A stretch of DNA of 64,000 bases from an uncultured Flavobacteriaceae bacterium (GTDB lineage Bacteria > Bacteroidota > Bacteroidia > Flavobacteriales > Flavobacteriaceae): positions 1-64,000 of the forward strand of contig CANKYF010000018.1 of the NCBI GenBank assembly GCA_947487895.1. The letters are read 5' to 3'. The notes beneath the pieces are model-generated. The model made no database searches and was not told where the DNA came from. It saw only the letters and a program-made list of their open reading frames with translations. Positions 38,901 to 41,032 of this stretch are shown here, piece after piece. The translations under genes were made by a program, and so were the position numbers. Within the stretch, counting starts at the first letter, position 1; each line of letters opens with the position of its first letter.

Positions 38901-39590
38901 TTACTCTGTTCTTATTTGGATAGTAGATGGAATATTTGGTGATCCTTTGTTTAAAATAATATCCCTTAGAAATTGTAGTCTATTTAAATTATTATTAAAA
39001 AAGATTTTGACATTTATCTTTTGAATAGACTGGATAACACCTCTAAGCACTTTATTGAAGATTGTCTTAAGGGAAAATAGCTGTATATCTGAATAATAAT
39101 CAACATCCCTAAGCCTCTGAAGAGTTACACTATTGGAAAGGCTACTTGATATTTCATTAAACAACGTGTCCTTATTCCAATTGAAGTTTAGAAATGTATT
39201 ATAGTTAAAATTATCTTTTGAAATTCCCAACAAATAAAAGCCTCCATCATTGGTTGGACCAATAACTGTATTATCATTCAATAAGGCTTTTTTGGCTTGT
39301 ACAATATGCTTACGTTCTAGTTGAGGACAATCATTACCAATCACAATAATATTATCATATCCTTCTCTATAAATATTTTGTAAAGCATTTGAGAATCTAG
39401 CACCAAAGTCTTTTCCTAATTGTTTAGTTTCATCATAAAAGATGATAGGCAAACCACTCTCCTTTGCTATATTGGTAGTATGAATTTGTAATATTGATGC
39501 CAAAGATTTTTGAGCTAAAAAAGGCTTATATTTCAGCTCTTCTTCAACAGAACGAGCAAAAACTAATAGCGCTATTTTTTTATTTGGCAT
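38901..39590 (-). CDS. DUF2064 glycosyltransferase-like protein
   Basis: A 229-residue cytoplasmic protein resembling the DUF2064 (TIGR04282) family, which has a GT-A-type nucleotide-binding fold. Supporting blocks are IALLVFARSVEEELKYKPF, QLGKDFGARFSNAL, IVIGNDCPQL with the probable metal-binding acidic residue, and GPTNDGGFYLLGIS. The last 60 residues are less conserved and basic. It stands alone, with a 103-base gap to the Oar-like gene. The molecular role is not established; nucleotide-sugar or phosphosugar transfer has been suggested for the family. Confidence 0.75.
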   Translation of the reverse strand: MPNKKIALLVFARSVEEELKYKPFLAQKSLASILQIHTTNIAKESGLPIIFYDETKQLGKDFGARFSNALQNIYREGYDNIIVIGNDCPQLERKHIVQAKKALLNDNTVIGPTNDGGFYLLGISKDNFNYNTFLNFNWNKDTLFNEISSSLSNSVTLQRLRDVDYYSDIQLFSLKTIFNKVLRGVIQSIQKINVKIFFNNNLNRLQFLRDIILNKGSPNIPSTIQIRTE

Positions 39591-39717
39591 TGTATGTTTA
39601 CGGAGTTTAATTTAATAGAAAAATAAGTCGTTCTACTTATTTATAAATTACAGAATAGATGCAATTAATGCAAAAGAAAGTAGGTTGTAATTGTATTAAA
39701 ATAAAACACTACTCGTT

Positions 39718-39925
39718 AATTCAAGAAAAAAATGAATCAAGTATTATTATAATTAACTGATTTATTAGGGATTGAATATCCCTCAAAGCTCCGCTTTGAA
39801 AATAAAAAAACTCTGTTTACAAATTCAAGAAAAGATGAATCAAGTATTATTTATAATTGCTCGGCTTATTAGGGATTGAATATCCCTCAAAGCTCCGCTT
39901 TGAAAATAAAAAAACTAAGCTTACA
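39718..39925. repeat. Tandem repeat, two 104-base units plus a partial third
   Basis: Units start with AATTCAAG at 39718, 39822 and 39926 (exact 104-base spacing); the third breaks off after a few bases. Each full unit contains two hairpins: AGGGAT-TGAAT-ATCCCT followed by TCAAAGC-TCC-GCTTTGA (39767-39799 and 39871-39903). The units differ by scattered changes, mainly in the middle. There is no open frame. Together with the bare stretch 39591-39717 this fills the gap between DUF2064 and the tRNA. It may be a locally amplified structured element. Confidence 0.85.
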
Positions 39926-39961
39926 AATTCAAGCGAGCTTGATTTGATACTTAGTTTTTTT
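39908..39961 (-). terminator. Long hairpin after tRNA-Arg
   Basis: AAAAAAACTAAG (39908-39919) pairs with CTTAGTTTTTTT (39950-39961), with an inner CAAGC-GA-GCTTG stem (39930-39941). The A and T runs on both sides allow it to work in both directions. It begins ten bases beyond the tRNA 3' end and is the likely tRNA terminator. Confidence 0.7.
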
Positions 39962-39970
39962 ATTTATTCG

Positions 39971-40044
39971 TGACCCCGGAGGGATTCAAACCCCCAACCC
40001 TCAGAGCCGAAATCTGATGCGCTATTCAGTTGCGCCACGAGGCC
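39971..40044 (-). tRNA. tRNA-Arg, anticodon TCG
   Basis: On the minus strand, a full cloverleaf: acceptor GGCCTCG with CGGGGTC (two G-U pairs), D stem GCGC/GCGC, anticodon stem TCAGA/TCTGA with loop TTTCGGC (anticodon TCG, reading CGA and related Arg codons), T arm GGGGG-TTTGAAT-CCCTC, discriminator A at 39971. CCA is not encoded. The 5' end lies one base after the stop codon of the GIY-YIG gene, so no room for a separate promoter is visible and it is probably transcribed through that gene. Confidence 0.95.
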
Positions 40045-40045
40045 A

Positions 40046-40282
40046 TTATATTAGTGTTTTAGTAAATTCTCTACCTATACCACTTTTTAAATACTTTTCT
40101 CTTATTCTAGCTTCATTTCTTGTTTCAAATAATTCTTTATGAATAACTCTCCAAGGAACATAAGCTTTAGTTGACCTATTTTGTCTCGAATTATGCTCAT
40201 ACAACCTTCTTTCAAGGTTATTGGTCATCCCTACATAAAACCTTGTAAAATCATCACTATAAAGAACATATACTATATACAT
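40046..40282 (-). CDS. Small GIY-YIG nuclease-domain protein
   Basis: A 78-residue single-domain protein of the GIY-YIG superfamily. Visible are the N-terminal YIVYVLYS strand, Y16-V17-G18, Arg25/Arg26 in ERRLYEHN, and the Glu57/Glu62 region in NEARIREKYLKSGIGREF with the expected catalytic Glu, so the nuclease appears intact. It lies exactly between a degenerate 5' half of tRNA-Arg (40293-40350) and the complete tRNA-Arg (39971-40044): its start is 10 bases from the first and its stop one base from the second. Homing-type behaviour directed at tRNA genes is plausible; a housekeeping DNA-repair role is the alternative. Confidence 0.88.
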   Translation of the reverse strand: MYIVYVLYSDDFTRFYVGMTNNLERRLYEHNSRQNRSTKAYVPWRVIHKELFETRNEARIREKYLKSGIGREFTKTLI

Positions 40283-40292
40283 CTTATTCTTA

Positions 40293-40350
40293 CCGAAACC
40301 TGCCTGCCGGCAGGCAGGTCTGATATTCTATTCAGTTGCGCCACGAGGCC
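40293..40350 (-). pseudogene. Degenerate 5' half of tRNA-Arg(TCG)
   Basis: Read leftward from 40350, 23 bases are identical to the start of the intact tRNA-Arg (40044-40022). Three changed bases destroy one side of the D stem, the next six match again, a 20-base palindrome follows, and then TTTCGG of the anticodon loop is present. In total 35 of 38 tRNA bases are shared (intact copy 40007-40044). Nothing of the 3' half remains. It cannot form a tRNA and appears to be the remnant or donor of a tRNA duplication that involves the GIY-YIG gene. Confidence 0.88.
40299..40318. repeat. 20-bp GC-rich perfect palindrome within the tRNA remnant
   Basis: CCTGCCTGCCGGCAGGCAGG is a perfect 20-base palindrome, strikingly GC-rich against the AT-rich surroundings. 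It splits the tRNA-Arg remnant between the anticodon stem (TCAGA) and the anticodon loop (TTTCGG). Its compactness suggests a REP-like mobile palindrome; copy number in the genome is unknown from this window, where it occurs once. Confidence 0.8.
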
Positions 40351-40385
40351 CTAAATCCCAGACTAAAGGAATTCATTTTATAAAT

Positions 40386-40835
40386 CTATGCTAATTTGGC
40401 TTTTACAATATTAGAAATGGTTTTACCATCTGCTTGTCCAGCAAGTTGTTTACTTACAAGCCCCATTACTTTACCCATATCTTTCATTCCTTCTGCACCT
40501 ACTTGATCTATGGTAGCAACTACTACTTTTTCAATTTCTTCTTCAGATAAAGCTTCTGGTAAAAACTGGCTAATAACTTCTGCTTCTGCTAATTCTGGAG
40601 CAGCTAAATCTTCTCTACTCTGCTCTATAAATAATGCTGCACTATCTTTGCGTTGCTTCACTTGTTTTTGCAATAGTTTAAGCTCTTGTTCCTCTGTCAA
40701 CTCATCTCCCGCTCCACTTTCTGTCTTAGCTAATAATATTGCCGATTTTACAGCTCTTAAAGCTGTTAAAGCAGTTTGATCTTTAGCTTTCATTGCTTCT
40801 TTTAAAGCTGTCATTACTTCTTGCTGTAAACTCAT
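40386..40835 (-). CDS. GatB/YqeY domain protein
   Basis: A 149-residue cytoplasmic protein of the YqeY family, related to the tail domain of the GatB amidotransferase subunit. Typical blocks are LKEAMKAKDQTALTALRAVKSAI near the start, QFLPEALSEEEIE, and MGKVMGLVSKQLAGQADGKTIS near the end. Family proteins are thought to contact tRNA-like partners, but the function is not established. It follows the ftsZ gene on the same strand with about 255 bases between, an arrangement common in flavobacteria. The gap holds a terminator, two repeats and a palindrome. Confidence 0.9.
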   Translation of the reverse strand: MSLQQEVMTALKEAMKAKDQTALTALRAVKSAILLAKTESGAGDELTEEQELKLLQKQVKQRKDSAALFIEQSREDLAAPELAEAEVISQFLPEALSEEEIEKVVVATIDQVGAEGMKDMGKVMGLVSKQLAGQADGKTISNIVKAKLA

Positions 40836-40850
40836 AGTTTTAAATTTTAG

Positions 40851-40868
40851 TCCCGATAGTTATCGGGA
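40851..40868. repeat. Palindromic repeat TCCCGATA-GT-TATCGGGA
   Basis: A perfect 8-bp inverted repeat with a 2-base centre, 15 bases upstream of the YqeY-like start codon. It resembles short palindromes scattered in flavobacterial intergenic DNA; only one copy lies in this window. Confidence 0.6.
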
Positions 40869-40909
40869 TGCGAAGATAAGAAATAGATACATAAAACAGC
40901 TTGTTTGAG

Positions 40910-40977
40910 ATTCCTGTTTTCACTTCGACTCCGCACTTCGGCAAGCTCAGTGTGACACTCAGTGGCCACACAGGAAT
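40910..40977. repeat. Dispersed repeat with core CACTTCGACTCCGC, copy 1
   Basis: ATTCCTGT (40910-40917) and ACAGGAAT (40970-40977) form an outer stem around a GC-richer interior with CACTTCGACTCCGC (40921-40934) and AAGCTCAGTGTGAC. Related copies lie at 52011-52058 and 55914-55929, all in gaps of the division cluster region. A further small stem CCTCGAG/CTCGAGG follows at 40995-41016. Confidence 0.75.
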
Positions 40978-41032
40978 GACTGTTTCAAAGGTACCCTCGA
41001 GTTTATAGGCTCGAGGAATTATTTTCAAAATT

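Follow-up and report, generated by a model that had tools for sequence, protein, structure and literature searches.

Among the described systems that come closest to the element reported here are the mORFs of fungal mitochondria and the phage enzyme SegB. In the accessible portion of the report on them, mORFs form hybrid genes in fungal mitochondria (atp6, atp9, cox2, and nad3 of Glomus; atp6 of Allomyces); insertion brings in an endonuclease ORF and a presumably foreign part that takes over from the native one, which stays alongside as an orphan, and the atp9 case is of the GIY-YIG type (PMC3630166). SegB, a free-standing GIY-YIG homing endonuclease, cuts in tRNA genes, co-localises with phage tRNAs, and drives tandem amplification of a unit made up of a tRNA and segB, as far as the available text goes (PMC13096335). 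Prokaryotic relatives of Slx1 are described, in the part of the source at hand, as minimal domains without extra parts (PMC1564403). GIY-YIG genes accompanied by partial tRNA copies in bacterial chromosomes are undescribed among the literature matches listed, a search that covered titles and abstract openings, with subscription papers mostly outside its coverage. Homing enzymes of the I-TevI/Seg type have a separate sequence-specific DNA-binding region behind the GIY-YIG domain, and SegB is larger than the nuclease treated below; RAYTs are HUH tyrosine transposases; and Ssn of Neisseria is a single-strand-specific GIY-YIG nuclease. To our knowledge, UPF0213 members have not been described as mobile units associated with tRNAs.

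The locus studied here lies in a stretch of 64,000 nucleotides, called the window throughout (contig CANKYF010000018.1 of assembly GCA_947487895.1, an uncultured Flavobacteriaceae bacterium). Read on the minus strand from 40350 to 39970, with yqeY upstream (40386..40835, minus strand), it holds a dead 5' copy of tRNA-Arg, a GIY-YIG ORF of 78 aa (40046..40282, minus strand), and an intact tRNA-Arg(TCG) (39970..40044, minus strand; called by ARAGORN and by Rfam RF00005 at 55.9 bits). Ten bases separate the dead copy from the ORF and one base separates the ORF from the intact tRNA, a layout that an earlier note on this DNA had described exactly to the base. The dead, or orphan, copy comprises tRNA positions 1-32 (40319..40350, minus strand; 29/32 identical to the intact tRNA), is then split at the anticodon stem/loop border by a 20-bp perfect palindrome, CCTGCCTGCCGGCAGGCAGG (40299..40318), a feature absent from that note, and resumes with positions 33-38 (TTTCGG; 40293..40298, minus strand). 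Altogether 35 of 38 positions are alike in the dead and the intact tRNA, the same count on realignment as had been given before, and the alignment scores 27 versus 10 for the reversed or reverse-complemented tRNA used as control. A DNA search of the genome with tRNA-Arg(TCG) gave three matches, namely itself, a tRNA-Arg(ACG), and the dead fragment, so that no second tRNA-Arg(TCG) was found in this genome. Downstream, a 16-nt perfect inverted repeat with a 30-nt loop (39904..39965, minus strand) may act as a terminator 3' of the tRNA. The Rfam scan of 39500-41000 with E up to 0.1 picked up the tRNA and a single further match, which scored under its gathering threshold, and no group I intron. 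Between tRNA-Arg and a DUF2064 gene there is also an 83-nt repeat in two copies that are 89% identical (window 39747-39933), which includes AGGGATTGAATATCCCT and an A-run.

The GIY-YIG domain of the ORF covers residues 1-67 (PF01541, 55.6 bits against a cut-off of 22.6). Residues Y5, Y16, G18, R26, and E62, which we take to be the catalytic positions of the family, are invariant across an alignment of 20 rows (the 78-aa protein and 19 relatives), and the protein has the domain with catalytic Tyr, Arg, and Glu that marks the GIY-YIG superfamily. A profile built from 20 proteins at tRNAs or tRNA-like repeats, and chosen for that position, has as its nearest solved structures the UPF0213 proteins 1zg2 and 1ywl (E 5e-15 and 3e-13), followed by SLX1 (best E 8e-8), with a marginal match to I-TevI (E 0.028). 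By its closest relatives (solved structures being those compared) and its single minimal domain, the nuclease belongs with the stand-alone UPF0213/Slx1-like proteins. The Seg-type model TIGR01453 scores 20 bits against a cut-off of 56.05, and no separate DNA-binding region of the I-TevI/Seg type is found; 78 aa leave no space for a DNA-binding domain beyond GIY-YIG, which counts against a homing reading and makes the isoacceptor specificity described below hard to account for. The nuclease of this clade is under purifying selection. The median dN/dS is 0.145 and all 44 of 44 close ORF pairs lie below 1 (Nei-Gojobori; pairs not independent, ORFs containing stops left out), and hence the clade nuclease is, or was recently, functional. 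Stop codons interrupt some of the copies found in the family and phylum profile searches.

The six congeners have an empty site at the tRNA-Arg locus: in 6/6, tRNA-Arg(TCG) begins 6-47 bp after yqeY, a gap too short for a nuclease gene, and the locus contains no GIY-YIG match. The genome under study holds a second element, in which a GIY-YIG gene is flanked by two palindrome-bearing 5' copies of tRNA-Met and followed by an intact tRNA-Met, and this site too is empty in all six congeners. Here the first dead copy starts within 3 bases of the tRNA start in the congeners and has a promoter-like TATATTTGC ahead of it; 381-385 bp further downstream comes the intact tRNA, which is identical to the tRNA-Met of the congeners. 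What was originally the region upstream of the tRNA now leads into the dead copy and the nuclease gene, and the intact tRNA adjoins the nuclease. In two elements of this genome, a partial tRNA copy and a small GIY-YIG gene thus form a unit inserted where the congeners have an uninterrupted tRNA gene. An endonuclease ORF in a gene that is uninterrupted in relatives, as in the mORFs, is accordingly seen at two sites, against six of six congeners each. The earlier note had proposed comparing the locus in nuclease-free relatives and had reasoned that a partial tRNA found in them would make the link coincidental; at tRNA-Arg as at tRNA-Met, the six congeners carry neither nuclease nor fragment.

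In two of the congeners (G005 and G006; loci L021 and L023), the tRNA-Arg(TCG) behind yqeY differs in the D arm and the anticodon stem from that of the other four. With no nuclease beside it, this divergent tRNA is a possible trace of an earlier replacement.

The association with tRNA genes extends over a whole clade. In the first GIY-YIG tree, 27/34 rows on one side were tRNA-associated and 0/58 on the other (41 genomes, among the matches listed; matches weaker than 1e-15 or shorter than 55 aa left out; midpoint root, weak central fork, tRNA labels assigned by hand). One of the 58 rows labelled non-tRNA, L081, is 116 bp from a tRNA-Ser, and no partial tRNA copy was found at that locus. The 20-protein profile has some match in at least 236 of the 299 family genomes searched, and in the phylum search at least 197 of 296 Bacteroidota genomes have some match, the non-tRNA clade included. 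The first, family, and phylum lists that supplied loci hold the best rows among the matches, and the 80 named loci of the closer alignment are the best 80 of 547. We count as an array all clade matches on one strand of one fetched locus, with clade membership placed at 85 bits or more to the 20-protein profile, a threshold set after the scores were seen; array counts cover loci L001-L315 (17 of them fetched via the palindrome), with L316-L318 left out. Arrays were de-duplicated by the letters around the first and last ORF, and the remaining rows are phylogenetically related. With these definitions, of the 174 de-duplicated clade arrays, 158 are within 200 bp of a tRNA on their own strand and none is that close to one on the opposite strand. 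The other small GIY arrays (below 85 bits) have a tRNA within 200 bp in 8 of 67 cases, which overstates the background because at least four of the eight (L116, L119, L149, and L201) are clade members interrupted by an internal stop, scoring 95-113 bits when read through. An intact neighbouring tRNA is lacking from the fetched stretch in 18 of the 174 arrays, 15 of which show tRNA-like fragments scoring 8 or more above control. In a phylum-wide sample, 26/28 loci are tRNA-linked, or 22/24 new loci after removal of four (L320, L322, L326, and L330) that repeat earlier ones.

The targets in 155 arrays are led by tRNA-Arg (75: TCG 41, ACG 18, TCT 13, CCT 3), with Ala and Pro at 16 each, Met 12, Val 11, Leu 10, Asn 8, Asp 4, Phe 2, and Ser 1. 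Named hosts include Lutimonas, Mesonia, Maribacter, Arenibacter, Aequorivita, Ekhidna, Echinicola, and Pedobacter; further hosts are MAGs labelled Saprospiraceae, Chlorobiota, Nitrospirae, and Saccharibacteria, labels that may err, and in the last of these the tRNA-like stretch continues into masked bases.

Of the 155 tested arrays, 137 include a partial copy of the same tRNA that outscores its control, the tRNA reversed or reverse-complemented, by 4 or more, and in 128 of these the margin is 8 or more; in the remaining 18 of the 155 no partial copy clears the margin of 4, and in 2 the control scores higher. An orphaned part of the target beside the ORF, another feature of the mORFs, is present in the window and in these 137 arrays. 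The search for small GIY-YIG genes near tRNAs that the earlier note suggested has in this way yielded both proximity (158/174 arrays within 200 bp) and partial copies (137/155), and GIY-YIG neighbours of tRNAs that never show duplications, which the note would have taken as a sign of coincidence, are not what these 137 arrays show.

Two arrangements occur. In the 5' type (124/155), a dead 5' part of the tRNA is followed by the ORF and the intact tRNA; in the 3' type (31/155), the intact tRNA comes first, followed by the ORF and a dead 3' part, and the 3'-type arrays displayed have a terminator-like stretch between intact tRNA and ORF. The duplication of the 5' part that had been noted in the window is the majority class, and 3' copies occur as well. 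The least decayed dead copies are near-complete, reaching to about tRNA position 61-74, with the palindrome as their main lesion (L223, L264, L276, and L280). The idea of a minimal tRNA-targeting unit that leaves an orphan part is strongly supported by the empty sites and the clade-wide link; insertion exactly at the anticodon loop is not borne out, because these copies reach that far and because the palindromes, in our view the likeliest sign of a cut site, lie more often at the 3' border of the D-loop (44/99) than at an anticodon-loop border (14/99). Two to four units are contained in 29 of 174 arrays, single-gene units repeat at a spacing of about 300-450 bp, and among the matches listed three genomes (G586, G528, and G465) have five or six equally spaced nuclease copies. 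Some 5'-type ORFs run into the tRNA, which supplies their stop codon, their tails being encoded within it (NIRPRGATE in tRNA-Arg, NLAR in tRNA-Met). In annotation the dead copies are open to miscalling, as in some arrays where ARAGORN gives tRNA-SeC and tRNA-Stop.

Set beside the known systems, the clade resembles the fungal mORFs in having an endonuclease ORF in an essential gene with an orphaned native part alongside. As far as the accessible text describes them, the mORFs concern mitochondrial protein genes and longer LAGLIDADG or GIY-YIG ORFs, with no palindrome mentioned there, whereas the present clade combines bacterial chromosomal tRNA genes, a minimal nuclease, both 5' and 3' orphans, and tandem arrays. 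With SegB, on the same partial basis, it shares the GIY-YIG domain, the association with tRNA genes, and the tandem units of tRNA and nuclease. SegB is phage-borne, and the portion of the text available reports no isotype preference and describes no orphan tRNA halves or palindromes; the present clade, in contrast, is found on chromosomes, follows tRNA isoacceptors, and stands closer to UPF0213/SLX1. Like the stand-alone UPF0213/Slx1 proteins, which supply its closest solved-structure matches, it has a single minimal GIY-YIG domain. In our best reading, the logic of the element would be that of the fungal mORFs and of SegB, in a minimal UPF0213/Slx1-like form on bacterial chromosomes.

At least one clean palindromic insertion is present in 86 of the 137 orphans, and none clean in 51 (insertions shorter than 12 nt, with a stem below 6, with a deletion, or with fewer than 5 aligned bases on either side were left out). 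In all, 77 of 99 insertions lie exactly at a stem/loop border of the cloverleaf, against 26% by chance: 44 of the 99 at the 3' border of the D-loop, 14 before the D stem, 14 at the borders of the anticodon loop (12 on its 5' side, 2 on its 3' side), and the rest elsewhere. Reduced to 35 classes of isoacceptor and position, which are not fully independent, 19 are at borders (p 7e-4); for CC...GG palindromes, a class defined after looking, the figure is 19 of 24 (p 6e-7). By eye, many palindrome borders also read A|G, so that a sequence preference is possible. Palindromes related to that of the window occur in the same place at eleven further loci (L092, L123, L223, L224, L228, L229, L237, L257, L265, L274, and L298). 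The palindrome is not confined to tRNA-element loci, as we had considered: the exact 20-mer is found in 17/100 family genomes, and most copies examined are intergenic and away from tRNAs. Nor does it appear to help the tRNA to fold, since the predicted pairing of the intact tRNA in joint transcripts of 78 5'-type arrays is unchanged by it (mean 0.289 with the palindrome, 0.290 without, and 0.281 shuffled; Wilcoxon p 0.93 and 0.42). In the orphan it probably marks and blocks a putative cut site. At two loci (L308, about 1470-1663, and L309, about 1359-1545), tRNA-Thr-like 3' fragments near an intact tRNA-Thr(GGT) are split by the same palindrome with no clade GIY-YIG match within 700 bp; these are possibly arrays that lost their nuclease.

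Nuclease lineages track tRNA isoacceptors. On a clade tree of 115 proteins from many genera (rows below 90 bits left out; few columns, many forks unresolved), the isoacceptor label changes 19 times, with 11 as the minimum, against a mean of 72.2 in shuffles, none of 200 being as low; vertical inheritance in place may add to this clustering. Within each of the Asn, Pro(TGG), and Arg(TCG) lineages there are both 5' and 3' types, which would follow if the target were set by the nuclease and the side of the orphan were free to vary.

The evidence on the origin of the working tRNA differs from site to site. The intact tRNA-Arg(TCG) of the window is 74/75 identical to that of element-bearing Mesonia and Arenibacter loci and 61-64/75 to the same-locus tRNA of the congeners, in a comparison that covered the tRNAs of fetched loci, mostly element-bearing. 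Over positions 23-38, the dead copy matches four of the six congeners at 16/16, and the intact tRNA matches these four at 13/16; for the other two congeners (L021 and L023) the figures are 11/16 for the dead copy and 12/16 for the intact tRNA. From 16/16 versus 13/16 and 74/75 versus 61-64/75, the dead copy looks resident and the working copy looks imported. Counting against import, the dead copy agrees over positions 1-22 with the intact tRNA-Arg and not with the congeners, and later gene conversion would be needed to reconcile the two. Behind a yqeY-like 3' end at L219, the orphan is, by eye, of one type and the intact tRNA of another. A foreign working copy is thus suggested at the tRNA-Arg of this genome and at L219, and not at its tRNA-Met or at L100/L124. 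That the rescue tRNA is recoded and resistant to cutting found no support as a general rule: the tRNA-Met equals that of the congeners, and the tRNA-Arg of L100/L124 is identical to that of the element-free genome G001 (L020).

We consider it likely that these loci are free-standing homing-type elements that target tRNA genes and leave or bring a working tRNA, and their recurrence at many tRNA genes points to an overlooked family of minimal selfish elements living on them. The nuclease would cut or nick an element-free tRNA gene within the tRNA body, and repair from an element-bearing copy would import the unit, leaving one working tRNA, partly or wholly of donor sequence, and an orphaned piece of the resident one, in which the palindrome would probably mark and block the cut site. 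The tandem arrays could arise when, in a chromosome that already bears the element, the working tRNA is now and then cut and repaired from the sister. In the 5' type, a host that stopped transcribing the nuclease gene would presumably lose the tRNA with it.

Several other explanations compete with this one. The nuclease might mainly mobilise dispersed REP-like palindromes, comparable to RAYT with REP, so that the hairpin-forming single strand of the tRNA would be a landing site and the tRNA copies by-products. We hold this to be unlikely, although a good part of the palindrome data would suit it: the clean insertions in 86/137 orphans, their placement (77/99 at borders; 19/35 classes, p 7e-4), and the closeness to UPF0213 and to the structure-specific SLX1. 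RAYT/REP, as far as the accessible sources go, also joins a small nuclease gene to palindromic repeats; the present nuclease is, unlike a RAYT, GIY-YIG, and its partner is the tRNA gene. Among seven other-clade GIY-YIG loci examined in the same genome, three (L003, L006, and L012) are flanked on both sides by REP-like direct repeats, but L002, L007, and L008 are without them and L005 has a weak pair on one side. Against a mobiliser of palindromes stand the 51/137 orphans without a clean insertion and the rarity of the exact 20-mer (17/100 family genomes, versus a nuclease-profile match in at least 236/299), and such a mobiliser does not predict isoacceptor tracking. Decidedly unlikely, in our view, is a domesticated nuclease that serves the host and is coupled to tRNA supply, through tRNA dosage, a stress response, or attack on invading DNA that bears tRNAs. 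The purifying selection, the spread across Bacteroidota (some match in at least 197/296 genomes, the non-tRNA clade included), and the position on the strand of the tRNA in 158/158 arrays with a tRNA within 200 bp would suit such a service, but the empty sites in six congeners at both loci, the tandem arrays, the stop-interrupted copies, and the many tRNA targets are more in keeping with a selfish element.

Since tRNA genes are classical att sites, the locus could also be the remnant of a tRNA-integrated prophage, ICE, or genomic island reduced to one gene. This we regard as very improbable: in the window the GIY-YIG ORF is the only one between the tRNA copies, no integrase gene lies there, and the duplicated part is the 5' one; across the clade 5' copies exceed 3' copies (124 versus 31), and single-gene units recur at about 300-450 bp. 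A phage or plasmid vector was rejected as well, the phage search giving two weak matches, to Listeria phages, and the plasmid search none. Short tRNA repeats can form by slippage or unequal exchange, and an unrelated small nuclease might merely have come to lie beside a locally duplicated tRNA. The chance of such a coincidence is close to nil; the congeners have neither nuclease nor fragment at both sites, and the clade-wide pattern (a tRNA within 200 bp in 158/174 clade arrays versus 8/67 other small GIY arrays) already refutes it.

The homing-type element that we favour could be specified further, and here we are tentative, with doubt outweighing belief. The nuclease, about 80 aa long and of structure-specific Slx1/UPF0213 stock, would act as a minimal natural gene drive on tRNA genes, one of a widespread class. 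Its target would be the cloverleaf fold that the gene of one isoacceptor adopts when its DNA is exposed as a single strand. Cutting would take place where a stem meets a loop, repair would spread the nuclease along with a functional copy of that tRNA, and a captured hairpin would keep the nuclease from cutting the resident copy left behind. Such an element would amount to natural cleave-and-rescue acting on essential RNA genes. The homing-type reading, if right, would account for the position of one small GIY-YIG clade at tRNA genes in Bacteroidota, would mean that bacterial chromosomes can harbour selfish nucleases aimed at particular essential RNA genes, and would suggest how foreign tRNA genes come to replace native ones or to form chimeras with them. 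The substrates of minimal UPF0213/Slx1-like GIY-YIG proteins, and the means by which some 80 residues might select a target, would likewise become accessible to testing.

A similar layout was seen on a protein gene. At two loci from family genomes (L044 and L074), a related GIY-YIG gene lies 5' of a nucleotide-sugar epimerase-like gene and is preceded by a short copy of the 5' end of a gene of that kind, which stops at the conserved TGGAGF motif (33/42 bases alike at L074), the same arrangement as in the tRNA elements. At L042, too, a GIY-YIG gene has an epimerase-like gene behind it.
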